Source: Aureococcus anophagefferens (Eukaryota; Sar; Pelagophyceae; Pelagomonadales; Pelagomonadaceae). From it: DNA of 64,000 nt. The stretch covers positions 1,667,529 through 1,731,528 of the forward strand of contig NW_008705568.1 of NCBI RefSeq assembly GCF_000186865.1, in the 5' to 3' direction. How positions within the stretch are numbered: the stretch's first letter is position 1; every line of letters begins with the position of its first letter. Position numbers and translations under genes: made by a program. Below the pieces are notes generated by a model. That model ran no database searches. It saw nothing but the letters and a program-made list of their open reading frames with translations, and was not told the origin of the DNA. This document shows positions 955 through 60,162 of the stretch, one piece after another.

Positions 955-2765
955 TCAGTTCGGGTAGCGCTCGAGGAGGCAGGAGTGGCCGATGCCGCCG
1001 TCGGCGCAGGCGGCGACGAGGGCGAACTGCTCGCCGGAGCGCTGGAGGCGGTTCGACGCGGTCGTGACGATGCGGCTGCCCGTCGCGCCGAAGGGGTGGC
1101 CGAGGCTCAGGCTGCCGCCCTGCGTGTTGACCTGGGCAGGACAAGAGTGATTCAAGTTCGCTTCAACGTGAGTGTTCCGCGCGCGCGCGTTCCGGAAAAA
1201 TCATCCACGCTTCGAGGCCGTTCCAAGAGATGATCGCTCGTCCAAAAATCAGCCGAAACGAGTGGAAAACGGCCGAGAGAGGAGCCTTTGAAGTTGGGAA
1301 TTTCGCACTCTTTTCCCGCCCATTGTGTTGACCTTGGCGAAGTCCATCTCGCCGAGCTTCTGCGTGCGGTTCGGGAGGAAGTCCGCGGCGAACTTGTCGC
1401 TGTTCATGGCCGCGAAGTTGGACAGGACCTGGCCCGCGAAGGCCTCGTGCATCTCGACGACGCCGACCTGGGCCGGCATCGAATCTTCGACCCGACGTCG
1501 ACGTAAGCGACTGCGACGGTGTCGACGCGAGGCGTTCCGCCGTGCGTCGAGCACTCGACGAGCGCGATCGATTCGTCCAAAAGCCGGCCGCATCGACGTC
1601 GATTCGACCGAGCTCGAGAGGTTTGAAGTTTGGCCGGAAGAACCCGACCGGCGGTCGATTTCGGCGCGGGCGCCGACGTCCTTGAGGTCGAGCTTCGCGT
1701 CGTTGAGCACCTTGGAGACGGCGTAGGTCGGGCCCAGCAACAGCTCCTCGAAGGGGTCGACGGCGGCGAAGGTCCAGTGGCGCAGGTAGGCCTTGGGCTT
1801 GAAGCCCAGCGCGAGCGCCTTCTCCTCGGACATGACGAGCGTCGCGGCCGCGCCGTCCGTGAGGAAGGACGAGTTCGCCGCCGTGTGCGTGCCCGTCTCG
1901 TTCTTGATGAAGGCGGGCTTGAGCTTGGCCAGCTTCTCCGGCGTCGAGCCGGCCTTGATGCCGTTCTCCGAGAGGTCCGCGCCCTGCACGCCCGGCACGA
2001 GCTCCTCGGCGTAGAGGCCGTCGTCGTGGGCCTGCTGGGCCCGCGTGTGGCTCATGAGCGTGTAGTCGTCCTGGTCCTTGCGCGAGATGCCGAACTTGGC
2101 CGCGAGGCGGTCCGAGCTGTGGCCCATCACTTCTCCCGTCGTGAAGTTGGAGATGCTCGGCGCCTCCGGCGCCAGGTCCTTGAGCTTGAGGCCCTTCAAG
2201 AGGCCCAGGGCGCCCGCGGGCCCCTTCTTCAGGGCCTTGGCCGCGCCGAGGAGCCGCTTGCGCACGGGGCGGCTGTAGCGGATCGGCACGTCGGAGAACG
2301 TCTCGCAGCCGCCCGCGACGACGACGTCGGCCTGGCCCGCGAGGATCTTCTCGGCGCCCTGGCAGATGGCGGCGTTGGAGCTCACGCAGGCCAGGGTGAC
2401 CGTGTGGGCGGGCACGTCGATCGGGTAGCCCGCGTGCATGGCCGCCTCGCGGGCGATGTTCGACGTGCGGCTCTCCTGGATGACGGTGCCGTAGAGGACG
2501 TAGTCCACGAGGGACGCGTCGAGGCCCGTCTTCTGCATGAGCCCCGTGAGCGACATCTTCGCGAGGTCCACGGCCATGACGTCCTGGTAGATGGTCTGCG
2601 ACAGCGCGAAGGGGATGCGCACGCCGTCGACGATGACGACGTTCTTGCCCCCCGTGGAGAGGGACCGGGCGCGCGACGACAGCGCGCGCGACGACAGCGA
2701 CTTGAGGCCTGCGGGGGTCGGGGGTGGGACGCGTTGTTTGCGGGCTCCGGCGACGCACCCAACAT
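955..2765 (-). CDS. HADHB: Mitochondrial acetyl-CoA acyltransferase (trifunctional beta-type thiolase)
   Basis: This enzyme cleaves 3-ketoacyl-CoA with CoA in the last step of beta-oxidation. Exons on the minus strand are 2765-2759, 2708-1678, 1467-1333 and 1131-955, giving 449 residues in one frame. The N-terminus ([19 protein letters not shown]) is a typical mitochondrial presequence; it comes from a 7-nt first exon and a 50-nt intron that I inferred. Catalytic landmarks are present: nucleophile Cys in [10 protein letters not shown], His in [18 protein letters not shown], and the C-terminal CADGGIGH loop. The region before [14 protein letters not shown] matches the HADHB subfamily rather than cytosolic thiolases. 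Two introners interrupt it (1132-1332 and 1468-1677). It is divergent from the membrane-protein gene at 2893, with about 127 bp between the starts. Confidence 0.88.
1132..1332 (-). mobile_element. Introner F1 in thiolase (201 nt, GT-AG)
   Basis: The target duplication GTCAACAC lies on both sides in gene sense. The left copy gives the GT donor, and the terminal repeat ends CCTGCCCAG as acceptor. The 5' terminal repeat is mutated to AATGGGCGGG. Removal joins FAKV to NTQGG in frame. Confidence 0.93.
1468..1677 (-). mobile_element. Degenerate introner F2 in thiolase (210 nt, GT-AG)
   Basis: Both terminal repeats have diverged, reading CCGCGCCG and CCGGCCCAG instead of the CTGTGTGG/CCACACAG pair. 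The internal core (ggcttttggacgaatcgat) is recognisable. The target duplications GTCGGCGC and GTCGGCGT differ by one base. Removal joins LKD to [10 protein letters not shown]. This is an older copy than the others. Confidence 0.85.
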
Positions 2766-2892
2766 TGTGTTGCTTGAGAACACTGTGGCAGAATTGTCAA
2801 GTTCAGGTGCAACGCAAACCCAAGATGATGCTGCCCAGATGCGGCATCGCTGCCCGGGCCCACGCGACATTCGAGAAGTCTTTTGCTGCGCG

Positions 2893-3375
2893 ATGGTGTC
2901 GATCTTCGCGCGGTTGCTCGCGGCCCTCGTGGTGGGCTTGGCCATTGGTCAGGATCCGACCCTCTCCCCCACCGCCGCCAGCAACGCGACGGCGCCCACC
3001 GCGACGCCCGCGCCGTCCGTGGCGGCGGCCAACGCGACGGCGCCGACCGCGACGACGGCGCCGTCGTCCTCGTCGACCACGCCGAGCCCGAGCCTGTCTC
3101 CGGCCCCGAGCACCACGTCTCCGGCCCCGAGCACCGCGACCTCCACCGACGCGCCGACGGCGGCCGGCGGCGGCGGCGGCGGCGGCTCCGACGACGACGA
3201 CGACGGGATGAGCGGCGGCATGATCGCCTTCGTGACCATCCTCTGCATCGTCGTCTTCGTCGCCGTCATCCTCTTCGCCGGCTTCAAGATGCGCGCGGAC
3301 CGCCGGGGCCTCGGCGAGTTCCGCGAGGGCCTCTCGCCCGGCGCGCAGAACCCCCTGGGCAACGACCGCCTGTAA
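2893..3375 (+). CDS. Type I membrane protein with Ser/Thr/Pro stalk
   Basis: The product is 160 residues. A signal peptide (about 1-19, ending GLAIGQ) is followed by a stalk of about 80 residues of Ala, Thr, Ser and Pro with several Asn-Ala-Thr sequons, probably heavily glycosylated. A Gly run and five Asp come next, then one membrane segment (about 109-131, Ile/Val/Phe-rich) and a basic cytosolic tail of about 28 residues. The start was chosen at 2893 because it begins the signal peptide; upstream in-frame codons belong to the promoter shared with the thiolase. The layout resembles small cell-surface mucin-like proteins. I do not recognise a family. Confidence 0.75.
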   Translation: MVSIFARLLAALVVGLAIGQDPTLSPTAASNATAPTATPAPSVAAANATAPTATTAPSSSSTTPSPSLSPAPSTTSPAPSTATSTDAPTAAGGGGGGGSDDDDDGMSGGMIAFVTILCIVVFVAVILFAGFKMRADRRGLGEFREGLSPGAQNPLGNDRL

Positions 3376-3438
3376 GCCACGTCGCCGCGAGGACCAGGGC
3401 CATAGCCGGGGCCAAGGCCACGCAAGGAGAGAGCAAGG

Positions 3439-3952: not shown

Positions 3953-4129
3953 CGCGTTCCGTCGAGCTCTCCCAACGCTGTATTACTTCAGTGCTGTATT
4001 TAGAAACGGCCAAGTTGAACTTCAAGTTGACTAAGTTATTGAAGGGGCCGTGCGCCCGCGTGCGCCCGACTGGCGCCCGCCGGTGAGAGGAGCCCGAGAA
4101 GCCCGCGGGGGGAACCAAGTTGCCGCCGC

Positions 4130-10247: not shown

Positions 10248-11743
10248 ACGTGGCGCTCCGGCGCGTAGGGCGACGGCGCCTCCGCGGTCCGCGCGGCCAG
10301 GTCCACCGTCGCCGCGAGCCGCGGCGCGACGTCGGGCGTCTTCGACGACGGCGCGAAGCACGTGAGCGCGTCCTCGAGGTCCGCCGCGTCGACGCGCGCG
10401 AAGGCCGCGAGGCGCCCCACCAACCCCGTCGCGTCGCCGGAGTAGTGCGCCGCGACCAAATCCTCGTAGTCGAGCCAGCGCCAGTCCTTGGCCGGCGCGG
10501 CGCAGGCGTCGCAGAGCGGCGACAGCGGCCGCCGCGCGCACGCGTCGCAGAGCCGCGGCTCCCGGAGGAAGTCGCAGACGTAGCGCGCGAGCGCCGCGTT
10601 GCTCTCCGCGTGGCGCCCGAAGCTCCCGTCCCACTCGCGGTGGCTCCAGGCCGCGCGCACGGGGTCGCGCCGGAGGACGAGATACTTCGCCTCGACGAAG
10701 TCGAGCGTCGCGAAGGCCGCGTGCCAGTCGTCCAAATTCACGGAGTCGCCCGGGTGCGGCTCGTCGCGGTCCGCGGCGGCCTGTGTCGAAATCAAATCTT
10801 CAACCCGACTTCAATGTGCGCGTATGCGACCGTTTCGACGCGAGGCTTTCTGCTGTGCTTCGAGAACTCGACGAGAGCAATCGATTCGTCCAAAAATCAG
10901 CCGAATCGACTTCGATTTGATTGAGATAGAGAGTTCTGAAGTTTGGTGGGGACCCCCCAAACCAGTGGTTGGAATCCACACAGGCGGCGGCGCTCGCGAA
11001 GCGCGTGGACGCGCCCGCGCGGCCCTCGGCCGTGCCCCAGGGGAAGGACGCGAACTCGAAGACGACGCAGGGCCGGCCGCGCGCCGCGAGCGGCGCGAGC
11101 AGCGCCGCGACGGCCGCGCGGCGCCGCGCGAGCCGCGCCGCGGGCGTCTCCGTCGCGTCGCACGGCGATTTGTAGAGCGACGTGCCGTCGCTGACGACGG
11201 AGTCGGGCAGGAAGACGTCGCGGAGGCCGCGCCACCAGAGGTACGTGTCGCGCCAGCCGTACCTTCGGACGAACGCGTAGCCGAGCACCTGGGCAGGACA
11301 AGAGAGATTCAACGTCGCTTCAACGTGAGCGTGCCGCGCGCGCGCGTTCCGGAAAAAGCATCCACGCTTCGAGACCGTTCCGAGGGATGTTCGCTCGTCC
11401 AAAAATCAGCCGAAACGAGTGGAAAACGGCCGAGATATGAGCCTTGGAAGGTGGGCATGTCGCTCTCTTGTCCTGCCCTGCCGAGCACGGGCGTGAGCCC
11501 GTGGTGCCCGACGCCCTCGACGCCGACGACGTAGACGACCTGGACGAAGCGCGCCGTCTTCGCCGGCGCGACGCGCGGCGCCGCCGCGCAGGGCAGCGCG
11601 CCGCCGCCGCGCGCGAAGGCGGCGAGCGTGCGCAGGAGCCAGAGGTTCATCTCGATCCGGTCCTTCGTCGTCGCGCCCTCGTGCCACGTCGACCCGTCGT
11701 CGCCGTCGAGCGCGCGCGCAACCAGCGTGTCGGCGGCGGCCAT
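10244..11743 (-). CDS. Sulfotransferase-like protein
   Basis: Exons are 11743-11489, 11288-10992 and 10780-10244, giving 362 residues. A P-loop-like segment (VGVEGVGHHGLTPVLG) corresponds to the 5'-phosphosulfate-binding loop of PAPS-dependent sulfotransferases. YLVLRRDPVRAAWSHREW fits the 3'-phosphate-binding segment, and DWRWLDYEDL fits the conserved Tyr-Glu-Asp-Leu region near the C-terminus. The substrate is unknown. No signal peptide is obvious; a transferase in the secretory path would need an upstream exon. Two introners (one F1, one F2) split it; the first falls inside the P-loop region, after LTP. Confidence 0.65.
10781..10991 (-). mobile_element. Introner F2 in sulfotransferase-like gene (211 nt, GC-AG)
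   Basis: The target duplication is GCCGCCGC; terminal repeats are CTGTGTGG (5') and CGACACAG (3'). The donor is GC. Removal joins RFAS to AAADRDEP in frame. Confidence 0.92.
11289..11488 (-). mobile_element. Introner F1 in sulfotransferase-like gene (200 nt, GT-AG)
   Basis: The target duplication GTGCTCGG is perfect. Terminal repeats are CAGGGCAGGACAAGAG and CTCTTGTCCTGCCCAG. Removal joins GLTP to VLGYAF in frame. Confidence 0.95.
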
Positions 11744-11918: not shown

Positions 11919-14900
11919 CTACTCCTCCTCGAAGAGGAAGCGCTTCGTGTTCGGGTCGACGAGGGGCACCCAGCCGCGGCCGTCGGCGACCTTGAGGAAG
12001 GTCGCCCCCGAGTCGTGGCCCGCCGCCGGGTCGTCTTCGTGCGCGAACGCGCCGTCGACGGGGAGCCGCTCGCCCGCGATGGCGCTCTCGTCGGCCGCGG
12101 CCGCGTCGAAGGTCGGGCCTTTGCGGAGCTGGACGGGGAGCGCGCCGCGGAAGAGGTGGTAGTGGGCCCGGTCCCCCCGCCAGGTCCCCCGGACGGGCTC
12201 GAGCCCCTCCGCGGCCGTCCACCCGCCGTCCGCGCGGACGAACGTGTCGCCGCCCGCGCGGACGAAGCGGCTCGCGAGGAAGAGGTCCCCGGGCTTGAGC
12301 CGCGCGCCCGTGAGCGGCGCGTCGCGCGCCGCGCGGGCCCGCAGGGGCAGGGGCGCGGCGCCCGCGACGCGGTAGACCGCCGCGTCCGAGGCGCGCGCGG
12401 CCTCGGGCGCGGGCGCGGCGGGCCCCGCGCCGTCGTCCGCGGCGGCGATCTGGGCGTTCAGCGCCGCGATCCAGGCCGCGAGGTCCGCCTCGTCGGGCGC
12501 GACGAGGAACCAGCGCTGGCCGCCCGTCTCGACGCAGAAGCAGTTCTCCGTGTCCGTGAAGGAGCACACGGAGCCGCCGTCGAGGCGCATGACCTTTTTC
12601 TCGCCGCCCGCGCGGCGCCGCGCGCCGCTGCCGCCGTCGCTCTGGGACCGCTTGTCGTAGTACTCGAGCACGGAGTCCTCGAGGACGAACCAGCGCGGCT
12701 TCCACCGCGACGTGTAGCGGCCCTGCTTCATGAGGTAGCCGTCGCGCCGCGTCGCCGCGAGCCGCGCGAGCTCGTCGGCGCCGAAGCGCCCGGAGACGCG
12801 CGAGTCCGACGACGGCGCCCGGCCCCGCGGGGTCCGCGACGAGCGCTGGGACGACCGCGCGGGCGCCGCGGGCGGCTCCCACTGCGTCTCGCCCGAGACG
12901 GTGTTGAAGTAGTAGAAGAGGCCGTAGTGCTCGTCGAAGTGGCTCTCCCAGCCCCGCGGCGGCGCGGGGACGACGAGGGAGCACTCCTCCGTGACCTGCC
13001 GCGACGTCGTCGGCGCCGCGGACGCCGTCGGCGGGAGGCCCGACACGCGGACGGTCCGCCGGCGCATGGTCGTCGGCCGCGACGACGACGACGACGCTGC
13101 GGCGGCGGGGAGGCCCGAATCCGGGAGTCCCGCGTCCGGGAGGCCCGCGTCCGGGAGCCCCGAGTCCGGGAGGCCCAGCGCCGGCGCGGCGCCGGTCGGC
13201 GGCGGCGGCGCCGGGGGCAGCGCGGCGGGCGGCGCGGCGGCCTCCGCCGCCGGCGGCGCCGGCGGCGGCCGCGGCCTTGGTCGCCGCGGCGATCTGGACC
13301 CGCGCCGCGCGCGTCGCCGCGGCCGCGGCCTCGGCCGCCGCGCGCGTCGCGAGCGCCTCGAGCGCCGGGAGCGCGTCCCACGCTCTGACGCGCGCGGCCT
13401 CGCCGCGCTTCAGCAGCGGCGCCGCCTCCGCCGCCGCGGCGACGACGGCGTCCCTCGCGGCCGTCACAGAAGCCGCGTCGACGGCCGCGCGGCGCGCGGC
13501 CCATTGCGCGGCGTCCGCCGCGCGGCGCTCCGCGGAGTCCCTCAGCCGCTTGAGCGCCGCGGCCGTGAGGGCCGTCTTCTTCGACGAGCGCTGCAACAAG
13601 TCGCGCACGGCGCCGGCGGCCTCGGACGCCGCGTCGCGGCTCGCGGCGGCGCCGTCCGCGAGGGTCCGCGCGCCGTCCGCGGCCGCGCGCGCGCGCTCCA
13701 ACCGTTCGGCGACGCCGCGCGCCGCGGCCGGGTCCGACGCGTCAAAATCTAAGACGCGCTGCACATCCGCGAGGGCCGACGCGGGGAAGAAGATCTTGGT
13801 GGCGCCTAAAAAGTAGCTCGCGGCGTCGACTTCGAACGCGACCAGCGCGCACGCGACCAGCGTCTCCCTCGGGCGGCCCGCGAACAAGGCCGCGGCGTCG
13901 CCCGGCAGCTTCGCCACGACGTCGCCGTAGGGGACGCGCGTCGGCAGCCCGACCTTGAGCACCTCGCAGGCCGCGAGCAGGCCCAGCGCGCGGAGCTGGC
14001 AACACGCGGCCGCGGCGTCGAAGTCGCCCGCGCGCATCGACGGCGCGGGCTTGACGCAGCGGATGAAGCCGCAGTCGCAGGCTTTGAGGGTCGCGTGGAG
14101 CGCCTGCATGGACTTGACGAACGTCGACGCGACCGTCGGCTTCTTGCGGGACGTTTTCGGAGGCGGGAGCAGGAGCGCCTTCGCGAAGGGCAGTTGTGCG
14201 CCCTCCTTCGCCAGGTCGAGGAAGTCGGCGTCGACGCCGTCGACGTTGCCCTTCGTCCAGGCGCCCGGCCCGCCGCAGACGTCGTAGGCGACGTGCGCGG
14301 CGTAGTGGCGCACGGTGAAGCGCCGGCGCAAATCCTTCGGGTGCGTCCGCGCGGCGCCCGGGTGGCCTGTGTGGAAATCAAATCTCCAACCCGACTTCAA
14401 TGTGAGTGTAGTCGGACGAGTTGCGCCATACTCTTCGGTTGTGCTTCGAGAACTCAATGAGAGCAATCGATTCGTCCAAAAATCAGCCGAATCGACGTCG
14501 ATTTGATCGAGATAGAGAGTTCTGAAGTTTGGTCAGGACCACCCAAACCAGTGGTTGAATTCGGCACAGCGGGTGGCGCGCCAAATCCCGGTGCACGGAC
14601 GCGAGGAACTTCGCGTCGTCCTTGGCGCCGTCGCCCGTGGCCGTGGCGCAGGCCGCGTCGAGGAGGCGCAGGACGCCCGGGGGCCGCGCCGCGACGAGGA
14701 ACTCCAGAGTGGCGCCCGAGTCCGGCGGCGCGGGCACGTCGGGCCGCTCCAAACCCTCGGCCTCGAAGAGGCGCAGCTCCGCGGCGAAGACGGCGTCGCA
14801 GAAGTGCTGCTGGAGCGCCTCGTTGGCGTAGTTGATCAATAACGTCTCGAAGCCGTTGACCTCGAAGGCCTCGAAGCCGAAGACGTCGAGGACTCCCACC

Positions 14901-16564
14901 GGGTTGCCGCCCGCGGCGTCGCGGCGGAGCCGCTCGTCGCAGGCCGCGACGAGGGCGTCGAAGAGCCGCCCGTAGAGGTGGCGCGCCAGCGCCTGGACGG
15001 CGAGCTGCGTCTGCGCCGGGGTCAACGCCCGGCAGAACGACTCGCCGCGCGTCCGCACGACCGTCTCCGCCAGAGACCGCGCGACCTCGTCGCCAAAGTG
15101 CGCGTCGAAGCCCAGGTTCCGTGCAAACAATTCAAAGGGGCACCCGGGGTGCTGGTCGATCTGGCCCCGGTCCTCGCCGAACACCAGGACGTCGCCGAGA
15201 TGGACGACGGCCGCGCAGACGCGCCACACCGCGGACGCGTCGCCTGTGTGGAAACCAAATATTCAACCCGACTTCAATGTGCGCATATGCGACCGTTTCG
15301 AAGCGAGGTCTTCTGTCGTGCTTCGAGAACTCGACGAGAGCAATCGATGCGTCCAAAAATCAGCCGAATCGACGTCGATGTGACCGAGCTAGAGAGTTCT
15401 GAAGTTTGGTCAGGACCACCCAAACCAGTGGTTGAATTCGGCACAGCGCGTCGCCCTGGATGAGCAATTCCAGCGCCGCGTTCACGGCCTTGTCCCGCGG
15501 CGCCTTGTCGCTGTAGGCGAAGCCCCCGGGCAGCACGCGGCACTCGCCGAGGGGCGTCATGCCCTTGAGCCGCCGGAGCGTATAAAGGGCGTGGTAGTTC
15601 GACTCGCCGGGCGCCTGGGAACGGGGTGATGCAACGTCGCTTCAACGTGAGCGTTTTTCGAGCGCGCAATCCAGGAAAAAACATCCGCGCTTCGAGGACG
15701 CTCCGAGACATGGTCGCTCGTCCAAGAATCAGCCGAAACGAGTGGAAAGCGGCCGAGAGAGAAGTCGGGCACGTCGCGCGCTTTTCCCGCCCGGCCCGGC
15801 GCCTGCCGGACGACGCGCGCGACCTCGAGGAGGTAGGTCTCGAGGCCGCCGCCCCGGAGCCGGCCGTCGCCGTCGAAGTACAGCTTCAGGAACTTGCCGA
15901 AGCGGCTCGAGTTCGGGTTCCGCGACGTCGCGGCGTTCCCAAAGGCCTCCAGCGCGGGCGCGACCGCGTCGAGCGCCTCCGAGAGCGACGCGCCCGCGTC
16001 GTCGCCGCCGCCGCGCCAGGCGAGGTAGGCCAAGACGATCTTCGACGTCTCCGTCTTGCCCGCGCCGCTCTCGCCGGCGACGACGAGCGCCTGGGGCGCG
16101 CCCGATTTCAGGCGCTGGAAGCACAGCTCCGCGAGGTCGTAGGGGTGCGGCGCCCCGGACCCGAAGGCCGCGTCGGCGTAGGCCCGCATGCGCGGCTGGG
16201 GGATGGCCTTGAGCGGGTTGACGGCGACGAGCACCGTGCCGACGCGCGTGTAGGCCTCGTCCGCGAGGTAGCGCGCGCGGAGCGTGTGGAGCAGCTCGGG
16301 CTCGTTGAGGTGGCGCATGGCCGTCGCGTCGTCGTAGGAGCCGCCGACGCCGCCGCCGGGGCCGTTGGCGCGGTGGAGCTCGCCGAAGCCGAGGTCCAGC
16401 TCGTGCTCCGCGCCGTCCTCGAGCTCGAGCGTCACCAGCGTGTTCGCCTGGGCCAGGACCTCGCCCCTCACCCAGGCGCCGTCCCTCGGGACCCAGAGCC
16501 GCTCGCCGGGCGCCACGGCCGGGGCGCTCATGAGCTTCTGGGACACGCTGCGACGCATGGTCAT
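11919..16564 (-). CDS. Unconventional myosin with WW and PH domains in the tail
   Basis: Exons are 16564-15803, 15614-15455, 15243-14578, 14366-13300 and 13241-11919, giving 1325 residues. The motor domain carries P-loop GESGAGKT (164-171), switch I NAATSRNPNSSRFGKF, switch II in GVLDVFGFEAF, the actin-binding surface, FIRCVKP and the converter ending in a GATKIFF segment. No clear IQ motif follows; instead there is an Ala/Arg-rich helical stretch. A Pro-rich linker with LPDAG/LPDSG repeats leads to a WW domain (GWESHFDEHYGLFYYFN), then a PH domain (GYLMKQGR to WIAALNAQI) and a C-terminal beta-rich region. The last intron (13242-13299, 58 nt, acceptor GGAG) is inferred from a frame change and is the least certain. 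Three introners split the motor. The tail suggests cargo or membrane phosphoinositide binding. Confidence 0.85.
14367..14577 (-). mobile_element. Introner F2 in myosin (211 nt, GC-AG)
   Basis: The target duplication is GCCACCCG, so the donor is GC. Terminal repeats are CTGTGCCG (5') and CCACACAG (3'). Removal joins DLAR to HPGAART. Confidence 0.93.
15244..15454 (-). mobile_element. Introner F2 in myosin (211 nt, GC-AG)
   Basis: The target duplication is GCGACGCG, so the donor is GC. The copy is close to that at 14367. Removal joins LIQG to DASAVWRV. Confidence 0.93.
15615..15802 (-). mobile_element. Introner F1 in myosin (188 nt, GC-AG)
   Basis: The target duplications GCGCCGGG and GCGCCCGG differ by one base. 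The element is about 12 nt shorter than the family norm and its ends are mutated (CCGGGCGGG, TTCCCAG). Removal joins VVRQ to APGESNYHAL. Confidence 0.88.
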
Positions 16565-16732: not shown

Positions 16733-19214
16733 ATGACCGAACCCGCACCAACGGAAGTCGTCTGGCCGTCGTCGGCAGTCATCGACGACGGCTCGCTCGT
16801 GCTCGTCGACGGCGCGCGGAGCCGCGTGTCCCTCTGCCGCTGCGCCGGCGGCGTCGCCGTGGTCAAGCGCTTCCGCGGCGCGACGGCCAACCGGCACCGC
16901 GACGCGGCGAGCCGCCGCTTCGCGGCGGAGCGGCGCGCGGCCTGGGCGCTCGCCGACGCGTCGCCCTTTGTTTTGCGGCCGCTCGCGACGGTCGTCGACG
17001 CGCCGGTCATGGCCGTAGTGCTGCCGTTCTGCGGACGGTTCCGGTCGCTCGACGTGCTCCTCCACGGCGGGGCCACCCACGACTGGTCCCCGGCCGGCGA
17101 CCGGGGGTGCGTGACGCCCTCCAGAGCCTGGCGCGCGCTCCTCGCGTTCGACGCCGCGCGCGGCGTCGCGGCCGCGCACGCTTCGGGCGTCGTGCTGCGC
17201 GACGTCAAGCCCGCGAACGTCCTCGTCGGCGACGACGGCGTCGGCCGCCTCGCGGACTTTGAACTGAGCTTCTTCGCCGGCGACCCGGCGGCGGAGGCCG
17301 CGGGCGGCGGCGGGCCCGCGTCGAAGCCGCGGCGGATCTTCGAGGGCACCCCGCAGTACGTCGCCCCCGAGCAGATCCGCGCGTACGACGGCGTCGTGCT
17401 CCACGGCGCCCTCGCGGACCCCATGCGCTCCGCGTCGACGGCCGCGGCGGACGTCTACGCGTTGGCCGTCTCCGCGAACGAGGCGGGGACCAGGGCAGCA
17501 AAAGAGAGCGAAATTCCCAACTTCAAAGGCTCCTATCTCGGCCGTTTTCCACTCGTTTCGGCTGATTTTTGGACGAGCGATCATCTCTCGGAACGGCCTC
17601 GACGCGTGGATGCTTTTTTTCCGGAACGCGCGCGCGCGGAACACTCACGTTGAAGCGACGTTGAATCACCTTGTGCTGCCCAGGCGGGGACGACGGTCGT
17701 GCCGTTCACGGACGTGACGCGCACGGACGCGCAATTACAGACCGTCGTCGAGGTCAAGTACTCGACGACGGCGCTCTGCCGCGCCGTCGCCAGCGAGGGC
17801 CTGCGGCCCGCGCTCGTCGACGCGAGTTTCGGTGGTCTGGAATTTTGCGACTTGGTGAGGGAAAGCTGGGCCGACGCGCCGGCGGCGCGGCCGCGCGCGG
17901 CGGCCTTCGCGGAAAGGCTCGCGGCGTGCTTCGCCGGGGACGCCATCTTCGAGCGAGGGGTTTCAGTGAAAGGACGCGGCGCGCTCGCGGCGGACGCCGA
18001 CGAGCCGCTCTGGACCTGCGACGCGGCGGCCGCGGAACCGCCGGCCGTCGAGGAAGCTCTAGGTCCTCTGACGGACGCGGAGCGAGACGCCGTCGACGCG
18101 ATGGGCCGGCGGCGCCGGCGCCGGCCGCCGCGGCGCGGCTGGGCCTGGGAGGCCCATCGGGGCCCCCGGGACGCCATGGAGGACGCGGCCGGCGGCCTGG
18201 ACTACGGCCCGCACGCGGGCTGCTACGTCGTCTCGGACGGCCACGGCGGCGCCGCCGTCGCGCGCCTCGCCGTCGATTCGTTGCCGACGCTCGTGGCGCG
18301 CTCCCTGGCGGCGACGACGGGCGGCGACGGCGACGTCCGGGCCGCGCTCGTCGACGCCTTCCACGCCTGCGAGGCCCGCTGCGGCGCGTTGGCCGGCGGC
18401 GCGTGCGTCGTCCTCGCTTTGTTGTTGGGCGACGACCTCTTTGTGGCCCACGTCGGCGACTGCCGGGCCGTGTTGGACCGCGACGGCGACGAGGGCTGGA
18501 CCTGGTCCCGGGCGCACGGCCCGGCGCCCGACGCGTTGGCGGGCCCCTTCGCCGGCGGCGTCGCGCGCTTGACGGAGGACCACGCGCCCGCGGGGCGCGA
18601 GGCCGCGCGCGTCGCCAAGGCGGGCGGGCGCCTCCTCGAGACGAGGGACGGCAAGGTCCGCGTGGGGCGCACGCGCGGCCCCGGCGGCCTCGCCGTGTCC
18701 CGGGCCCTCGGCGACGCGGGCGAGTACTGCGGCGTCGTCGCGTCGCCGGCTGTGTGGAATTCAACCGCTGGTTTGGGTGGTCCTGACCAAACTTTGAAAT
18801 TCTCCAGCTCGATCAATTCGAAGTCGATTCGGCTGATTTTTGGACGAATCGATTGCTCTCGTCGAGTTCTCGAAGCACGGCCGAAGGCGTTGCGTCGAAA
18901 CTGTCGCGTACGCCCACATTGAAGTCGGGTTGAAGATTTGAATTCCACACAGGTCGCCGGACGTCGCCGGGCCCGTGCGGCTCGGGCCGCGCGACGCGAC
19001 GCTCGCGCTCGGCACGGACGGCCTCTTCGACGTGTTAGGCGACGACGCCGTCGCGCGGGTGCTGCGCGACACGGCGCCCGAGCCCCACTTCGGCCCCAAG
19101 GCCCTCGTCGGGGCCGCGCTGGACGGCCGGGCGGCGGACAACGTCGCCGCGCTCGTCGTCTACCTCCACCGCCACCCGGAGGACGGCGACGCCCGCGGCT
19201 GCGCCCTCGCGTAG
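16733..19214 (+). CDS. Protein kinase-like / PP2C phosphatase fusion
   Basis: Exons are 16733-17482, 17684-18741 and 18953-19214, giving 689 residues. Residues about 20-250 are kinase-like: a Lys in VAVVKRFRG, the catalytic loop as VVLRDVKPANVLV (HRD is LRD), DFE in place of DFG, and APE in YVAPEQI. Residues about 375-680 are a PP2C (PPM) phosphatase: RDAMEDA, the metal-binding DGHGG, FVAHVGDCRAVL, LTEDHAP, LAVSRALGD, TDGLFDV and DNVAALVV all appear in order. The metal-binding Asp residues look intact, so the phosphatase half is probably active; the kinase half has changed catalytic motifs and may be weak or regulatory. Two introners split it, one in the kinase C-lobe and one in the PP2C domain. 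It ends 7 bp from the stop of the convergent TPR gene. Confidence 0.85.
17483..17683 (+). mobile_element. Introner F1 in kinase-PP2C gene (201 nt, GC-AG)
   Basis: The target duplication is GCGGGGAC, so the donor is GC. Terminal repeats are CAGGGCAGCAAAAG and TGTGCTGCCCAG. Removal joins ANE to AGTTVVPF. Confidence 0.94.
18742..18952 (+). mobile_element. Introner F2 in kinase-PP2C gene (211 nt, GT-AG)
   Basis: The target duplication GTCGCCGG and the 15-bp terminal repeats CTGTGTGGAATTCAA / TTGAATTCCACACAG are perfect. This is the best reference copy of F2 in the window. Removal joins GVVA to SPDVAG. Confidence 0.96.
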
Positions 19215-19221: not shown

Positions 19222-20432
19222 TTAGGACACGACGCGCTTCTTGCGCTTCTTCTCGCGGGGCGGGTACTTGGACTGGGTCACGAGGAGCTTCTTGCGCTCC
19301 TTGTAGGCCTCCTTGGCGACGCCCGTCTCCTTGGCGATCATGTTGAGGCCCTGGTCGAAGTCGCAGTGGATGCACGTGTCGAGGGCGCGGTGCGCCTGGA
19401 CGTAGTCGCGCCGCGCGTGGTGGGCCATGCCCTTGCGCAGGTAGGCCTTGACGACGGAGGCCCCGAACTCGCGGAGCCAGTGGATCTGGTCCTGCTCGTC
19501 GCACTCGCGCATGACGTGGGCCTTGGCGGCCTGGCCGAGGCGGATGGCCTCGTCGCACTTCTCGATGCACTTCTCGTACTGGGTCTCGCCCCACTTGGGC
19601 GCGAGCATGAGGTGGCAGTAGGCCTTGTTGACGACGGCGGGGATGTAGTACTTCCGGCCCTCCTGGACCTCCGTGTTGTTCCAGTCCATGGAGAACTTGG
19701 CGAGCTCCATGGCCCGCTCGTACTTGTCGCAGGCCTTGGAGAAGTCGCCGCGCTTCGCGCAGCGGTTGCCCTCCTCGCGCATGGCCTTGGACTCGGCGAA
19801 CTTCTTGAGCAGCGCCGTCGCGGCGCGCTTCGCGAACTTGGGCTTCTCCTGGGCAGCACAAGAGAGATGCAACGTCGCTTCAACGTGAGTGTTCCGCGCG
19901 CGCGCGTTCCGGAAAAAGCATCCACGCTTCGAGACCGTTCCGAGAGATGATCGCTCGTCCAAAAATCAGCCGAAACGAGCGGAAAACGGCCGAGAGAGGA
20001 GCCTGTGAAGTTGGGAATGTCGCTCTCTTGTGCTGCCCTGGGCTTTTCCTCCTTAAAGTCGGGGTCCAGGTCCTTCTCCGCCTCGACGTACATGGTGCCG
20101 TACTTGTCGTAGTTCGTCAGCGAGTGGTCCCGGGCCTTGGCGGGCTCCGCGGCGGGGTCCCGGGGGAGCTCGCGGATCCCGACGGGCTCCAGCAATTCGT
20201 CGTCGCTCTCGGACTCGACCTCCGGCGCGTCGTCGATGGCCGTCGCGACGCAGGCGCCGTCGACGGCCCAGGTGAGCCGGAGGTGCTCCGGCGCGAGGTG
20301 GATCTTGTTGCTCACGGCGATGACGAGCTCCTCCTCGTCGTCCATGCCCGACGCCTCGACCTCGAACTCCCGGTCCTTCCAGCGCACGGTGACCGTCGCG
20401 GACTCGTCGATGGCCTGCTCGAGGGCGCTCAT
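19222..20432 (-). CDS. Ubiquitin-like/TPR protein
   Basis: Exons are 20432-20049 and 19848-19222, giving 336 residues. Residues about 10-70 look like a beta-grasp (ubiquitin-like) domain: TVTVRWKDREFEVEASG, then a helix with AVSNKIHLAPEHLRL. The C-terminal half has at least three tetratricopeptide-like helical pairs (EEGNRCAKRGDFSKACDKYE, VNKAYCHLML, YLRKGMAHHARRDYVQAHRA) and ends in a basic KKRKKR tail. TPR modules of this kind bind chaperone C-termini or serve as scaffolds; the partner is unknown. The two halves are separated by an introner whose predicted donor is the unusual GA. Confidence 0.72.
19849..20048 (-). mobile_element. Introner F1 in TPR gene (200 nt, GA-AG?)
   Basis: The target duplications are GAAAAGCC (left) and GAGAAGCC (right), one base apart. 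Both ends of the element are intact. The reading frame is kept only if the exon ends at a codon boundary, which makes the intron start with GA; no in-frame GT or GC donor is available in the duplication. Confidence 0.88.
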
Positions 20433-24345: not shown

Positions 24346-24395
24346 GTGATTCAACGTCGCTTCAACTTGAGTGCTCCGCAGAGCGCTCGCGCGAG
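24346..24395 (-). mobile_element. Introner F1 remnant in a 5' flank
   Basis: The stretch ggtgattcaacgtcgcttca and its continuation match the 3' end of F1 read on the opposite strand, over about 35 nt. The terminal repeat itself and the rest of the element are absent. It sits about 90-140 bp upstream of the start at 24486, outside coding sequence. Confidence 0.75.
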
Positions 24396-48115: not shown

Positions 48116-48881
48116 ATGTCGGAGCTCGACCTCCACGCCCTCGCCGCGGCGCAGTCGCCGATTTTATTCCTCGACGTCGACGGCGTGCTCAACACGTCGC
48201 AGATGCCCGGCAAGCACGCGCTGCACCCCAAGCTCCTGCGGCGCCTCAAGGGTGTCGTCGACGCCACGGCCTGCGACATCGTGCTCAGCACGACGTGGCG
48301 GCTCCAGCGGGAGAACGAGGGCGTGCTGCTCGCGGCGCTCGAGGCCGCGGGCATCCCCCGGGCGACGGTCGCGGGCCGCACGCCGTCGCTCGGCGTCCAG
48401 GACCTGCGCTGGCACACGGGCGGCGCGAAGCGGCTCGGCGAGGCGCGGCGCGCGGCGGAGATCGTCGCGTACCTCGACGCGCGGCCCGAGATCACGACGT
48501 TCGCGGCTGTGTGGAAACCAAATCTTCAACCCGACTTCAATGTGCGCATAATCGAACGATTTGGACCAGAAACTTCCGCTGTGCTTCGAGAACTCGATGA
48601 GAGCGATCGATTCGTCCAAAAGTCAGCCGAATCGACTTCGATTTGACCGAGCTAGAGAATTCTCAAGTTTGGCCCCGACGTCCCAGCTCACTGGTTGATT
48701 TCCACACAGGTTCGCGGTCGTCGACGACATCGACGTCCTCGCCGTCGACGACGAGACCATGCGCGCCAAGCTCGCGCCCCACTTCGTCCGCACGATGGTC
48801 GAGAGCGGCCTGAGCGAGCGGTGCTGCGAGCGCCTCGGCGCCGTGCTCCGGGGCACGCCGATCCCCCAGAAGTCGTGCTAG
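48116..48881 (+). CDS. HAD-like hydrolase domain protein
   Basis: Exons are 48116-48498 and 48710-48881, giving 184 residues. HAD motif I is ILFLDVDGVLNT with both Asp residues. Motif II is the Ser/Thr of VLSTTWR. A downstream Lys/Arg-rich helix and VVDDIDVL fit motifs III-IV. This compact form resembles the HAD domain found in Swiss-army-knife RNA-repair proteins and small nucleotide phosphatases. The substrate is unknown. The introner lies between the HAD core and the acidic motif IV strand. Confidence 0.78.
48499..48709 (-). mobile_element. Introner F2, reverse to its host (211 nt, GT-AG)
   Basis: The target duplication GTTCGCGG is perfect. Terminal repeats are CTGTGTGGAAA and TTTCCACACAG. 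The interior is antisense to the gene. Removal joins EITT to FAVVDDID. Confidence 0.95.
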
Positions 48882-48889
48882 TTAGACGT

Positions 48890-51800
48890 CTAGACGCGGA
48901 CGCCACCGGGCGCGTCGACGGGGTGCGCCTCGCCGGCGAGGCCGTCGGCGTCCGTGCAGCCGCCGCAGGCGAGGAAGTTGAGGTAGCCCTCGACGAGGCG
49001 CGCGTCCCCGCCGGACCCGCGGCGGACGATGGCGAGCTCGTCCTCGGACCCGGAGAACGTGTCCTCGACCGCCGGCGCCGCGGCGTCGTCCTCGCGGTGC
49101 ACGGCGTCCGCGACCTGGTAGAAGAACTCCTCGCGCTTCGCCGGGGACTTGGGCGGCGACTCCGGGTCCACCGCGTCCGGCGCGGGCCCCCCGCGCAGGC
49201 CCGCGCGCCGCAGGGCCGAGTCGTAGAGCCGCGCGACCGTGATCAAATCGAAGTCGAAGCCAAAGTCGACGTCGAAGGCCTCGAGGTCGTCCATGACGAT
49301 GGACGCGATGCCCGCGAGCGGCGCGACGACGACGTTCAGGAAGACCATGAACGGCGCCGCGACGGGCGTCGGGATGCCCGTCGACACGTCCTCGTCCTCG
49401 ATGTTCGCGTCCGCGTGGAGGACCAGCGTGAACAGTAAATTCAAGAACAGGAGCCCCTGCATGAAGTTCGCGAAGGCGTCCATCGTGTCCGAGATGAAGG
49501 GCCGCAGGTACGCGTAGAGCGACGCGAAGAACAAGGCGGCCATGCACGCGAAGACGATCTGCCCGAGCGACTCCGCGTGGATCACGGGCACGGGCAGCAC
49601 CGCCGTCAACAGCAGCCGGCGCACGCACTCGAGGCACTCGAAGTACCAGCAGGGCGGGTCGTACTCGCCGAACAGGAACTCGAGGTGCGCGCTCGAGTCC
49701 TCGATGTCGCGCGACGTGATGACGAGCTCGTGGCCGAGCACGCGGCACGTCGCCGCCGCCGCCGCCGCCGTCGCCTGCGTGCGCCGCGCCGTCTTGCCGT
49801 TGACGTAGTCCTCGAGCTGGTAGTCCGCGCCGGCGACGGCCAGCGACGCGCGGCTCCGGTGCGCCTTGAGCGCGGGCACCTTGCGCTCCGGCGCTTTTTC
49901 GGCGTCGGCGCTGAGGCGCCGCGCGAGGTCGCGGTCGCCGACGTCCACGAAGTCCGCGACCGTGCCCGTCGTCTCCTGCGCGGCCGCGGGCCCCCCGCCG
50001 TGCGGCGCCTGGAAGAAGAACTGCTCCGCCTCGCCGGCCGTCGCTTTCGCCTCCGCGCGCTTGTAGTCCTTCGTGGCCTTGGACGTCACGGACCCCCGCC
50101 GCCGGATCGAGTCGTACATGGACGCGTCCCCGGCGCGCGCGAGCGGCGTCTCCGCGATGACCTTGTTCTCGCGCTCCGCCTCGCCGCACTCGCGCACCGT
50201 CGCCAGGTACTCGAAGGCCTGGCCCCGGAGCTCTCCTCTTTTAATCGCCAATAGCAGGTCCTCCTCCTGCTTCCGCTTGTAGAATTTCAGGAGCGTCGCG
50301 CCGATCCACCCGCTGTGGCGCTCCTCCTCCTCGTCCTCGTGCTCCAAGAACTTCGTGACCTCGCGGCGCTCGCGCCGGATGTCCGCGCCGACGTTTTCCG
50401 TCTCCTCGACGATGCGCTCCGCGAGCAGCGTGATGTTCGACGGCGCGATCGTGTCCTTGGCGCCGAGGAGCATGAAAAAATAAACAAAAGGGATGCCCAC
50501 GGGGTAGCAGAACACCATCAGGATCGCGTAGACGCGGTGCAGCGCGTAGCGGTTCGATTGGCAGGACACGGAGTAGTCCGCGTAGAGGTACGCGTCGCGG
50601 TAGTAGCGCGAGTGGACGCTATCTTTAAAATCGTCGTCGCACTGCAGGCTCCGGATGACGACCGTGGACGTCGTCGAGTAGACCGTGTAGGTCATCAACA
50701 AAAACACGAGGAAGACCATGCGCTTGAACGTCGCGCGGTCCTCCCTGTCCGCGCGCGTCCACGTCACCTGCGCGGACATCAAATCTTCAACCCGACTTCA
50801 ATGTACGCGCATGTGAATGGTTTGACACGAGCACGTCCGCTGTGCTTCGAGAACTCGACGAGAGCGATCGATTCGTCCAAGAATCAGCCGAGTCGACTTC
50901 GACTTGGCCGAGCGAGAGCATTTCAAAGTTTGGTCGGGACGTCCCGAACCGGCGGTTGATTTCCACACAGCACGTCACGTAGAGCCCGTAGGACCCGAAG
51001 AGCGACAGCGCGACGCAGATGGGCGCGGCCGTCGCGGCGACGAGCGTGTGCAGATAGTCGAACTCGCCGACGCACGTGTCCGCGACGAAGTCGCCCAAGG
51101 AGATGCCCAGCGCGGCCGCGCGGCGCGCCATCGCCGCGAACGACGGGGGCAGGTTCACGTTCGGGAACGACAGCGTGATGGACCCCAGAATCTGGAAGAA
51201 GACGAGCAGCACCTTGCACCGCGCGACCACGACGATCGCCGCGTCCGACGCCGCCGTCAGCGCCGACGCCAGGATCATGGCCACGTCCTTGAAGCGGCGC
51301 AGCGCGCAGAACGTCGCCACGCCGAAGATGAAGAACACGCCGCCGACGGCGCCCAGAATCGCCCGGCCCTGGGTCCGCCCGCCGGCGTCGCAGAAGACGC
51401 ACTTGCCCGAGGCCGAGTTGAGCTGGTAGCCGTCCTCGCAGAGCGCGCACAGAGGCCCCTCGTGGTGCCGCGTGCACTGCGCGTCGCTGTCGCGGATGGT
51501 CCCGTTGGGCCACAGGTCCACGCCGCCCGGGCACGCGTCCGCGAAGCGGCACCGCCGCGTCTCGCCCGAGTCGTAGGCGCTCCGCCAGAACTCGGCCTTG
51601 GCGACGACGTTCGAGCCCCCGGCGCACGTCGAGTGCTTCGGGCACTCCGCGCACGGCGCGCCCGCGACGACGGAGTAGGTGCCCGCGTCGCACTCGTAGC
51701 AGCGCTTGTCGGCCTGGTTCTCCTCGCCCGTCGCGCAGTCGCGCAGCGACATGGGCAGCTCGGAGAAGTAGGTCGCGTCGCCCACGGACGACTCGAAGCG

Positions 51801-54800
51801 CATGGCCACGGTCGACGCGGGCGCCTTGGTCATCGTCAGCGCGCCCGCGGCGTACGTCGCGACGCCCGACCCGAAGCCGTGCTGCAGCGCGCCGGAGTAG
51901 GCCGTCACGTTGTCGAGCCAGGCCATGAGCGTCGTCGTCGACGCGCCGCCGACGGTGCGCACGACCTGGCCGAAGCCGTCGAGCGCCTCGAGCACGACGG
52001 CGTCGGCCGTCGGCGCGCCGGACCGCTCGACGCCCGTGCGGTGGCTGGCGGCCACGCGCGCGACGCTCGACGCGCACAGGTTGCCGTAGAACGCGCGGTT
52101 CCCGTTGGCCGCGGCGCCGCAGACCTTGTAGGCGAGCCGGTAGAAGACGTCCGCCGACGCGCCGGCCTTCCCCGCGAAGTGCGCCGCGAGGTCGCTCGCG
52201 TTCAAGTCGCGCGCGGCCTCCTCGAAGAAGACGCCGCCGCCGCCTGTGCCGAATTAAAATCTTCAACCCGACTTCAATGTGAGCGTACGCGACAGTTTCG
52301 ACGAGATCCATTCGGTTGTGCTTCGAGACCTCGACGAGAGCAATCGATTCGTCCAAAAATCAGCCGAATCGACTTCGATTTGATCGAGCTAGAGAATTCT
52401 CAAGTTTGGTCAGGACCACCCAAACCAGTGGTTGAATTCGGCACAGGCCGCCGCCCGCCGGCGCCGCGTTGTTCGTCGACGAGTCCTCGAGGCGGAGCTC
52501 GCCCGACGCAAAGGCCGCGGTGAGGTTCGCCTCGACGTCGAAGGACGACGCCGCGTCGATGTAGAGCACGCCGCCGTTGCCCTTCTCGGCCTCGTTGCCG
52601 TCGAAGACGTTGCCGCCGCGCGAGAGGATCGCCGACCCGGCCTCCACGGCGAAGACGCCGCCGTGCGCCGCCGCGCCGTTGGCGACGATCTCCGAGTCCG
52701 CGACCGTGCCGTTCGCGGAACCGTAGAGCCGCGCGACGCCGCCGTTGCCGCCGGCCGCGTTGCCCGACGCCGTGACGTTGACGAGAGAGAAGGACGCGCC
52801 CGCCGTCGCCGCCGCGGCGCCGCCGCCGTCGGCGGCCTCGTTGCCGAGGAAGGCGCAATCGACGACGGACGCGTCGAGGGGCCCCTTGAGCGACAGCGCG
52901 CCGCCGGAGTCCGCCTGTGTGGAAATCAAATCTTCAACCCGACTTCAATGTGCAAGTGATCGAACGGTTTGGACCAGACTCTTTCGCTCTGCTTCGAGAA
53001 CTCGACGAGAGCGATCGATTCGTCCAAAAATCAGCCGAATCGACTTCGATTTGATTGAGCTAGAGAGTTCTGAAGTTTGGTGGGGACCCCCCAACCCAGT
53101 GGTTGATTTCCACACAGGAGTCCGCGGCGTTGCCCTCGCAGGTGCAGTTCGCGACGAAGACGCGCGGCCGCTTCGCGACCTCGTCCGTGTCCTCGAAGTG
53201 GAACGCGCCGCCGCGCTCCGCGGCGGCGTTCAGGGACGCGCGGACGTTCTCGAGCAGAAACGTCCCGAAGTTGGCGCCGAAGACCGCGGCGCCGGAGCCG
53301 CGCGCGGCGTTGCCCTCGAAGACGGCGTCGGCGAGGGCGACGGCGGCCGCGCCCGAGCCGTAGACGACGCCCGAGCCGACGTCGCTCTGCGAGAAGGACG
53401 CCGCGGACACGTCGAGCGTCGCGCCGGGTCCGGCGTAGAGCACGCCCGAGAAGCCCGCGGCGTCGCCGACGGAGACGACGTTCGTCAAGACCGACGCCGT
53501 GTCCGGGCTCGCGTAGAGGAGCGCGCCGTCGGCGACGGCCTCGTTGGCCGAACTCGCGACGCCGTCGGCGTCGAGGGACGCGCCCAGCGCGAGGAACACG
53601 GCGCCGAACGTCGCGACGTTGGCCCGCACGTCGAGGTCCGTCGCCGTCGCGGCGACGTCGGCCGCGAGGTAGACCGCGGCGCCCTCGACGGCGGCGTTGC
53701 GCTCGAAGACGGTCGCCGTCGCGGCGATGGCGCAGTCGGACGCGCAGAAGACGGCGCCGCCCTGGAGCCGCGCCTCGTTGCCGGAGAGGACGCCGCCGTC
53801 GAAGGTTAAAGGCGCGGGCGTGGCCGCGTGGATGCCCGCGCCAAAGTTCGCGCTGCCGCCCATTAATGTCGATTTTTGTACGGTGAGAAAAGCGTCCGCG
53901 AGGGAGAGCAGGCCGCCCTCGTCGCCCGCGGCGCCGCCGCGCAGCGTCGTTCCGACGATGTCGAGGACGCCCGCGCCGTCGACGCGCGCGACGCCGCCGC
54001 GCGCGCCCGCGGCGCCGCCGGCGAAGGCGCCGCCCTTGAGCGTGACGTTGCCGTAGGCCGACAGCTCGGCCTTGAGGAAGCCGCCGTCGTCGCCCGCGGC
54101 GCCGCCGGACGCGTCGACGCCGTCGAAGAGCACGAGGCCGGAGGAATAGGAGCAGAAATAGACGCCGCCGTCGGCGGCCGCGCTGTTGTTCGCGTAGGTC
54201 GAATCATAAACGGCGAGGGACCCGGGCCAGTACTCGGCGTGGACGCCGCCGGACCCGCCCGCGGCGTGCCCCGAGAAGGCGCCGCCGCGGACGACCATCG
54301 TCGACGAGTCGGACAGCGAGAAGCCGCCGTCCTCCGCGGCGGAGTTGTTAACGGCGACGACGTCGTCGAGGAAGACGCCCGCGCCCGCGACGCCGTCGTT
54401 CTCCGTGCCGTACTCCGTGCAGAGGACGCCGCCGTTGGCGCCCGCGGCGTTGTCCGCGAAGGTCGTCCCTTCGAAGGCCAGTCGCGACTTGTAGCCCATG
54501 ACCGCGCCGCAGGCCGACGCCGCGGCGTTCCGCGATATGGCGCCGCCCGCCGCCTCGACCGTCGACGACGCCGCGTAGAGGGCGCCGCCCATGGGCGCCC
54601 GGTTGTCCACCAGGGCCCAGTCGCCGGCCAGCGCGAGCGCCGCGCCGTCGTAGAGGGCTATCGCCCCCCCGAGATCGCCGCACGCGCAGTNTTCGACGGT
54701 CACGTCCGTGAGCTCGACGCGGCCGCCGGCGGCGTGGATGGCGCCGCCGTCGGACGAGTCGTAGCCGTCGACGAGCCGCACATTGGCGAGCGCGAGCCGG

Positions 54801-58293: not shown

Positions 58294-58385
58294 GGGGCTG
58301 CGAGCGGCGGTGTCGAGAGGCAAAAGGATGACCAAAACGCGGCACAGGCGGCGACGGAGGGCGCAGGCCCCTGAGAGCACCCCAG

Positions 58386-58745: not shown

Positions 58746-59144
58746 CGCGAACCGCGCTTGCGCACTGGCATTGAACTAGATATTTGAAGCCGACTGCCAG
58801 TGGCCGCCGGCGAGATTATGGGTCCGCCGCCGGCGGCCGCCAAACAAGACACGACCGTGCCGACGCCGGCCGCCAAGTCAGCGGCCGACAAGCATGCCAA
58901 ATGGTTGCAAGTTGGCGTGGGGCAACATCGACTCCACGCGGCTCGTTGAGGCATCTCAGAGAGGCGATATAGAGCGGACCACCATCATCGGTGAGTGGCC
59001 TCTTCACCAAAAGTTATTGAAGCCCGGGGAAAATTGGGCCGAAAATTGCTCGAGGCTGCTCGGCCGGGGAAGAGGGGCAGCCGGGTGCCGCGCCGGTCCG
59101 CGTCGGCCGGCGAGGCGCCCGCCCCGGAGCCCGGGCCGGGGGCG
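58746..59144. other. Intergenic/5' region of the Rab gene, 399 bp
   Basis: It holds a consensus donor site (cggtgagtgg at about 58989-58998), which could be the end of a 5'UTR exon or of a short exon starting at 58894. Two small ORFs (58819 and 58894) are open but unconvincing. Nothing else is recognised. Confidence 0.45.
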
Positions 59145-60162
59145 ATGGCCGACGCGGACCGCTACGACTNNNNNNNNNNNNNNNNNNNNNNNNNNNNNNN
59201 NNNNNNNNNNNNNNNNNNNGCTTCTCGCCGACCTTCATCACGACCATTGGCATCGACTTCAAGATCAAGGAGGTGCGGCGCTCCTCTCTTCCCGCCGCCG
59301 GCCCCGACGCGCGCGCGCGCCGCCACGGCGCCCCCGCGCGCCTTGACGGCCGCCCCGCGCAGGTCGAGCTCGACGGCCTGCGGGCGCGGACGCGGCGTCC
59401 CGGAAGAAGACGGGAGAACAACGGCGGCGCTCACCCTCGAACGTTCTAGGTGAAGCTCCAGATCTGGGACACCGCGGGGCAGGAGCGGTTCCGCACGATC
59501 ACGGTCTCGTACTTCAAGGGCGCGCACGGCATCGTCCTGGTCTACGACGTCACGGAGCGCGACAGCTTCGAGAACATCCAGCACTGGGTCCACCAGATCC
59601 GGGAGAACGCCGACGAGCGCGTGCGCCTGATCCTTGTCGGCAACAAGTGCGACCGGCGCTCCGAGCGCGTCGTCTCCACGTCCGAGGGCGAGGCCCTCGC
59701 GAAGCAGCGCGGCCCGCCGCGCCCCCGCCGCCGGACGTCCCGCGGCGACCGCGGCGCCCCGTCTTAGGTACGGCGTCGCCTTCTTCGAGACGTCGGCCAA
59801 GGAGAACTGCGCCGTCGACGAGTGCTACACGGCCATCGCGCGGGAGACGAAGGACGCGATTTTAGCGCAGTCCGAGGCGGACGCGCGCGCCGCGGACGCC
59901 CGGGCCGCGCGAAAGGGTGATTCGACGTCGCTTCAACTTGAGTGTTCCGCGCGCGCGCGTTCCAGAGAAAGGATCCACGCTTCGAGAGCGCTCCGAGAGA
60001 TGGTCGCTCGTCCAGAAATCAGCCGAAACGAGTGGAAAACGACCGAGAGAGAAGTTGGGAATCGCGCACCCTTTCGCGGCCCAGGCGGACGCGCTCGCGA
60101 GCCAGGCGGTCACCCTCGAGGGCCTCGGCGACAAGAAGAAACGACGATGTTGTCCCGCGTGA
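59145..60162 (+). CDS. Rab8/Sec4-like small GTPase, interrupted by a sequence gap
   Basis: Exons seen are 59145-59169 (before the gap), 59220-59272, 59363-59383, 59450-59706, 59768-59891 and 60085-60162. G2 is in [18 protein letters not shown]3 is [13 protein letters not shown]4 is VGNKCDRR and G5 is ETSAKEN. The C-terminus is KKKRRCCPA, a CCxx prenylation signal. The P-loop (G1) must lie in the 50-N gap, whose real length is unknown; about 27 residues are missing against Rab8. Rab8-type proteins direct exocytic vesicles to the plasma membrane. Two ordinary introns have the donor GCGCGG, and a degraded reverse introner precedes the last exon. Confidence 0.85.
59170..59219. other. Assembly gap (50 N)
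   Basis: Fifty N, a conventional placeholder, replace the part of the Rab gene that should encode the P-loop GxxxxGKS/T. The true length is unknown. Confidence 0.97.
59892..60084 (-). mobile_element. Degraded introner F1, reverse to its host (193 nt, GC-AG)
   Basis: The target duplication GCGGACGC is perfect, so the donor is GC. Terminal repeats have drifted together (CCGGGCCGCGCGAAAG and CTTTCGCGGCCCAG). The interior is antisense to the gene. Removal joins DARA to ADALASQ. Confidence 0.9.

Follow-up and report, generated by a model that had tools for sequence, protein, structure and literature searches.

Inverted-repeat DNA transposons as probable introns in a 64-kb stretch of the Aureococcus anophagefferens genome

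Introduction

Positions 1,667,529 to 1,731,528 of contig NW_008705568.1 of the pelagophyte Aureococcus anophagefferens (64,000 nucleotides, hereafter the window) hold a series of similar elements inside protein-coding genes, which raises the question of what these elements are and how their host genes can be read through them. An earlier note on this DNA had described them as introns born of DNA transposons, and the inverted ends, the duplications, the origins of donor and acceptor and the reading frames all agree with that description. We conclude that the elements are very probably non-autonomous inverted-repeat DNA transposons (introners) of A. anophagefferens which, as far as can be judged from sequence, act as introns.

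In the mechanism that we propose, every new insertion would duplicate 8 bp of its target. The element end lying downstream with respect to the gene would supply the AG acceptor, while the upstream copy of the duplication would supply the donor, for which G followed by T or C (GY) would be needed, and removal of duplication plus element would bring back the former reading frame. Family T, with CTGTGTGG ends, usually has AG at both ends and occurs in either orientation; family G, with CWGGGCAG ends, has AG at one end and occurs with that end downstream. Mobility would depend on a transposase acting in trans. The borders, the duplications, a strand rule, the restoration of frame and a genome-wide GY rule at exact CAGGGCAG-type ends were observed directly, and they lead us to infer actual splicing at these borders.

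Two related families with 8-bp duplications

Profile searches of the window returned 11 matches to family T (F2 in the earlier note) and 11 to family G (formerly F1). Setting one family G match aside as a non-coding fragment left 21 introners, 11 T and 10 G, as had first been proposed, with borders that agree with the extent given then (1132..60084). A family T element measures 203 nucleotides (nt) and a family G element 192 nt, which together with the 8-bp duplication makes 211 and 200 nt, respectively. Mean pairwise identity is 80% within family T and 88% within family G, and each profile matches copies of the other family, in the same orientation, over up to ~150 nt of interior; the two families are therefore related.

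Borders were placed by a script that chose, in the vicinity of each predicted end, the duplication with the best match and gave a small bonus to ends of the form CT/CA...AG/TG, so the script has some influence on the terminal AG. For the copies at 1132, 15615 and 34847 the border was partly set by the duplication because their ends are degenerate. Eighteen of the 21 duplications are perfect, one more than the earlier count of 17, and the remaining three have one mismatch each, in keeping with the limit stated at that time. Many near-identical copies thus occur as predicted introns in different genes (21 copies in 11 window genes, the latter number again obtained from reading the donor and frame results), and inverted terminal repeats with a duplication of fixed length were found in the window copies as well as in those from other loci.

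Splice sites, coding strand and reading frame

In 20 of the 21 window copies a GT or GC donor comes from the duplication and the AG from the end of the element (coding-strand donors: GC 12, GT 8, GA 1). The positions earlier assigned to donor and acceptor held throughout; the donor dinucleotide itself departed from expectation at 19849, which reads GA-AG. All 21 junctions lie in an open frame after intron removal, as had been claimed, and in 20 of them the coding score exceeds that of the other strand by at least 67 units. The remaining element, 59900, has a weak coding score (1 vs -23) and a 50-N gap upstream at 59170-59219. Pfam comparison of ten peptides, which cover 13 of the 21 junctions, aligned a domain across the removed intron at 10 of the 13 (myosin 3, thiolase 2, ion channel 2, and protein kinase, PP2C and HAD_SAK_2 1 each). 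The three junctions with no spanning domain are 19849, where TPR_2 matches downstream and under the cut-off, 21713, and 59900, where a Ras match under the cut-off ends before the junction.

Window and locus copies together formed a set of 113 unique copies, 94 of which passed a border filter (duplication at least 7/8 and inverted ends at least 10/14); the 8-bp duplication is perfect in 80 of the 94. A duplication beginning with GY, combined with AG at the element end, was present in at least one orientation in 92 of the 94 as scored, and in 93 with L028 corrected, a copy in which the script had misplaced the border and the true reading, GTCGCGGC on both sides, fits GY-AG. Coding strand and frame were assigned with a codon model trained on eight window frames, which assigned an open frame through the junction with confidence in 90 of 93 scorable copies. 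The coding strand was the GY-AG strand in each of the 79 confidently scored, unambiguous copies (79/79); the other 15 of the 94 fell outside this test (nine ambiguous, three unsure, one at a locus edge and two, L028 and 19849, scored none). Retention of the element would shift the frame or bring in a stop in 88 of the 90 copies with a confident frame. Sequence analysis of this larger set therefore gives the same arrangement as the window: the element carries one splice site and recruits the second from the duplication, and its removal restores the frame. Phases 0/1/2 were represented 37/20/33 times (n = 90), which fits the supply of GY within codons (p 0.68).

Family T lies sense to the gene in 19 copies and antisense in 29; family G lies one way in 40 and the other way in two. 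These two opposite copies, 29837 and L038:2544, start with CAGG and end with CCAG, which places AG at the other end of the element; they are both of the swapped-end family G copies that have a confident coding strand, and both are used in the opposite orientation. For 59900, a family G copy with altered ends, the splice sites alone point to the opposite orientation.

In antisense copies of family G (36-37 of 40) and family T (25-26 of 29) the motif TTGAA recurs at distances of ~20 and 31 nt from the AG and is a possible branch point. In family T sense copies its only recurrent place is ~12 nt short of the end (11 of 19).

Genome-wide distribution

The genome searched comprises 49.05 Mb in 86 contigs, and both its size and its GC content agree with those of a published strain (49.9 Mb, 70.5% GC; PMC11237714). 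The uL4 ribosomal protein encoded in the window (26235-27374) has an environmental protein as its best match (99%). Among named species A. anophagefferens is closest: two of its entries reach 87% and 80% in BLAST, over 46% and 43% of the query, and 92% and 95% in a multiple alignment, with most differences located where these two gene models skip or shift, whereas other named pelagophytes stand at 71-72%. A genome-wide search for both families, which the earlier note had recommended, yielded 1409 family T and 1720 family G motif matches with up to two mismatches, and reversed-pattern controls yielded 0. The window contains 20 motif matches (one being the fragment) vs 4.1 expected from these counts, a ~5-fold density that bears out the earlier description of it as very high. 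GY stands 8 nt upstream of 785 of the 819 exact CAGGGCAGSAMAAGAG ends (CAGGGCAG-type, family G) in the genome, compared with ~18%, whether judged from base composition or from coding DNA, and this count is independent of the border script. At duplication positions 3-8 no base exceeds 55% (at most 54% among 100 listed family G duplications).

Alternative explanations

The GY rule could instead reflect a target preference of the transposase, without bearing on splicing. GY at so many family G ends is steadier than random insertion would produce if many copies are extragenic, and RC is found at the end of 30 of the 100 listed family G duplications vs 18% by composition (p 0.002), so a mild symmetric target preference may exist. 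However, the strand of a gene should be invisible to a transposase acting on DNA, whereas the GY side tracks the coding strand in all 38 family T copies that could be decided, and just 9 of 49 family T copies (10 with L028 corrected) offer GY-AG on both sides, which is about chance. We therefore consider this explanation improbable. Spread through RNA by reverse splicing (the route proposed for introner-like elements of fungi), or in some other way tied to splicing (as suggested for Micromonas), appears less probable still. The concentration of scorable copies in confident coding frames (90 of 93) would suit it, and in PMC3879977 Micromonas introner elements are confined to transcribed regions in sense orientation, for which the authors suggest some connection with transcription or splicing; yet inverted ends, 8-bp duplications and a family that inserts in both orientations would be unexpected.

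A further proposal would add to the transposon explanation rather than replace it: insertion itself would strongly favour transcribed coding DNA, over and above selection, leaving few copies elsewhere. We rate this as slightly less probable than its absence. Copies seem clustered: besides the excess in the window, another 35 profile matches lie in 180 kb surrounding 60 loci, and some of these overlap the window or one another. GY is missing from only 34 of the 819 exact family G ends, suggesting that ~5% of copies are free of splicing constraint. A similar pattern could arise, however, if the genome is dense in genes or if non-coding copies, like the 24346 fragment, decay faster.

The same 34 ends are among several observations that weigh against the introner explanation. 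Another is 19849, the only true non-GY donor (GA) among the 94 filtered copies. Nineteen of the 113 copies fall outside the border filter, including 1132, 15615, 34847 and the fragment from the window, and also the family T copy at L010 1501-1703, whose ends are good but whose duplication matches at only 3 of 8 positions; it may have arisen by recombination between two copies. Sampling of the loci favoured those copies that most resemble two of the window. The observed phases (37/20/33) are also compatible with an equal distribution (p 0.07), and they differ somewhat between family T (16/9/23) and family G (21/11/10; p 0.06). Finally, no autonomous element with T or G ends was found.

Search for a transposase

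Five transposase Pfam families were searched genome-wide with no match in the window, as anticipated by the earlier note, which had placed the autonomous transposase outside it. The autonomous element sharing the introner ends that the note had proposed to look for was not identified, and the single P-type domain detected, elsewhere in the genome, could not be connected with the elements. Transposons of the hAT superfamily make 8-bp duplications and have ends of the form C-W-G-N-G, both of which recur here. The hAT domains PF05699 and PF14372 had 0 matches in the genome and also 0 in the control genomes, so their absence is not shown; KDZ (PF18758) likewise gave 0 in both, and MULE (PF10551) gave 0 in the genome with 4 of 14 controls matched.

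The P-element superfamily also makes 8-bp duplications, a feature shared by our elements. The P-type RNase H domain PF21787 gave one genome match, on contig C25 (E 1.4e-9, with in-frame stops), and matched no control genome. At this locus (L069; contig C25, 176872-180318) the adjoining upstream stretch reads N, and no exact CTGTGTGG, CTGGGCAG or CAGGGCAG ends were present in the readable 2.5 kb around the gene or in the next 7 kb. An introner-like segment at L069:2299-2432 was considered as an autonomous end and rejected, as it lies inside the P-type coding region and lacks standard ends; by eye, an older introner copy that forms an intron of the P-type gene is the better reading. TAG stops seen by eye in the first part of this gene had raised the idea of a ciliate-like code (TAA/TAG = Gln), which was dropped: decay of the gene is likelier because the downstream piece has stops under that code too. 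Viral spread was also rejected. A 19-nt core shared by the elements had one exact match in viral contigs, in L072, a tailed-phage-like contig by eye, and the resemblance extends over only 22-28 nt and was taken as chance; one family G copy compared with phage records gave no match.

Features of the window

The introns and neighbouring features are listed in Table 1. The family G remnant at 24346-24392 lies inside an inverted repeat and is perhaps a decayed unspliced copy. An introner-free stretch contains repeated gene-like segments that are 94-95% alike (38589-38888/43423-43722 and 40627-40818/43960-44151).

Table 1. Introner introns and other features of the window. All 21 introns are based on border and duplication search, donor reading and coding-frame score; their splicing is predicted from sequence.
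Feature	Position	Strand	Remarks
Introner intron, family G	1132..1332	-	donor GT; thiolase gene; Thiolase_C spans junction; far end degenerate
Introner intron, family T	1468..1677	-	donor GT; thiolase gene; Thiolase_C spans junction; duplication 7/8
Introner intron, family T	10781..10991	-	donor GC; one gene with intron 11289..11488
Introner intron, family G	11289..11488	-	donor GT; one gene with intron 10781..10991
Introner intron, family T	14367..14577	-	donor GC; myosin gene; Myosin_head spans junction
Introner intron, family T	15244..15454	-	donor GC; myosin gene; Myosin_head spans junction
Introner intron, family G	15615..15802	-	donor GC; myosin gene; Myosin_head spans junction; duplication 7/8; degenerate ends
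Introner intron, family G	17483..17683	+	donor GC; kinase part of kinase/PP2C frame; Pkinase spans junction
Introner intron, family T	18742..18952	+	donor GT; PP2C part of kinase/PP2C frame; PP2C spans junction
Introner intron, family G	19849..20048	-	donor GA; gene with TPR_2 just under cut-off; duplication 7/8
Introner intron, family T	21713..21923	-	donor GT; RRM gene; RRM ends 2 residues past junction
Family G fragment	24346..24392	+	non-coding; upstream of open reading frame 24486-25400
uL4 ribosomal protein gene	26235-27374		
Introner intron, family G, terminal bases swapped	29829..30028	+	donor GC; ion channel gene; Ion_trans spans junction
Introner intron, family G	30635..30834	+	donor GC; ion channel gene; Ion_trans and Ion_trans_2 span junction
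Introner intron, family G	34495..34694	-	donor GT; frame resembling membrane protein (by eye)
Introner intron, family T, degenerate ends	34847..35040	-	donor GC; frame of 34495..34694
Introner intron, family G	35720..35919	-	donor GC; frame of 34495..34694
Introner intron, family T	48499..48709	+	donor GT; HAD_SAK_2 gene; HAD_SAK_2 spans junction
Introner intron, family T	50768..50978	-	donor GT; 7353-nt frame
Introner intron, family T	52244..52454	-	donor GC; 7353-nt frame shared with 50768..50978
Introner intron, family T	52915..53125	-	donor GC; 7353-nt frame shared with 50768..50978
Introner intron, family G, altered ends	59892..60084	+	donor GC; Rab/Ras-like gene (Pfam Ras under cut-off); weak coding score

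Relation to known introners

Elements of this kind have already been described in A. anophagefferens. Huff, Zilberman and Roy reportedly found in 2016 that DNA-transposon introners of this species carry one splice site and co-opt the other. Our elements agree with introners of that type in species, inverted ends, constant-length repeats and a length of ~210 bp, and T and G may be the published families. According to two later papers, A. anophagefferens introners always have direct repeats and terminal inverted repeats (TIRs) of constant length (PMC7789003) and a characteristic length of ~210 bp (PMC9481584). With families described by Gozashti et al. in 2022 (PMC9860276) they have in common TIRs, target site duplications, a carried 3' site and a 5' site taken from the duplication (the type of Fig. 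2B there). Family 4 of Aureococcus sp. in the same survey differs, carrying both splice sites and lengthening the transcript by 12 bp, whereas the copies studied here add nothing according to the frame analysis. What is added here is the coding-strand rule (79/79), the genome-wide GY rule (785/819) and the majority of GC donors.

GC-AG introns and the survival of insertions

GC is the majority donor, used by 51 of the 90 confident-frame copies (with GT 37, GA 1 and, through the misplaced border of L028, GG 1) and by 66 of the 100 listed family G duplications (the other 34 being GT). GT nevertheless exceeds its supply in coding DNA of 26% in the confident-frame copies (37/88, p 0.001), and less clearly in the listed duplications (34/100, p 0.09). 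Little beyond GY seems to be needed at the 5' splice site of these elements.

On balance, we favour the view that the unexplained GC-AG introns of A. anophagefferens derive from introners: in the proposed mechanism, mass co-option of GY sites in GC-rich genes would lead to an exceptional GC-AG share. PMC3033335 gives GC-AG shares of 39.6% for A. anophagefferens, 22.2% for Micromonas pusilla and 2.7% for Micromonas RCC299, and calls this abundance an enigma. Micromonas CCMP1545 has 6,112 IE-A introners and RCC299 a separate class, IE-C, at 180 positions when compared with another strain, according to PMC3879977. Introner load thus parallels the GC-AG share, M. pusilla CCMP1545 having many and RCC299 far fewer, which fits this proposal. 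We did not meet the link in the portions of the literature on Aureococcus GC-AG introns at our disposal, and a printed one is possible.

With more than 3000 recognisable copies in the genome, these elements provide a clean and quantified case of introns made by DNA transposons. The majority of GC donors offers a testable answer to the published GC-AG puzzle. Sequence alone, through the strand rule and the GY rule seen across the genome, indicates that the insertions which survive are those that can be spliced.

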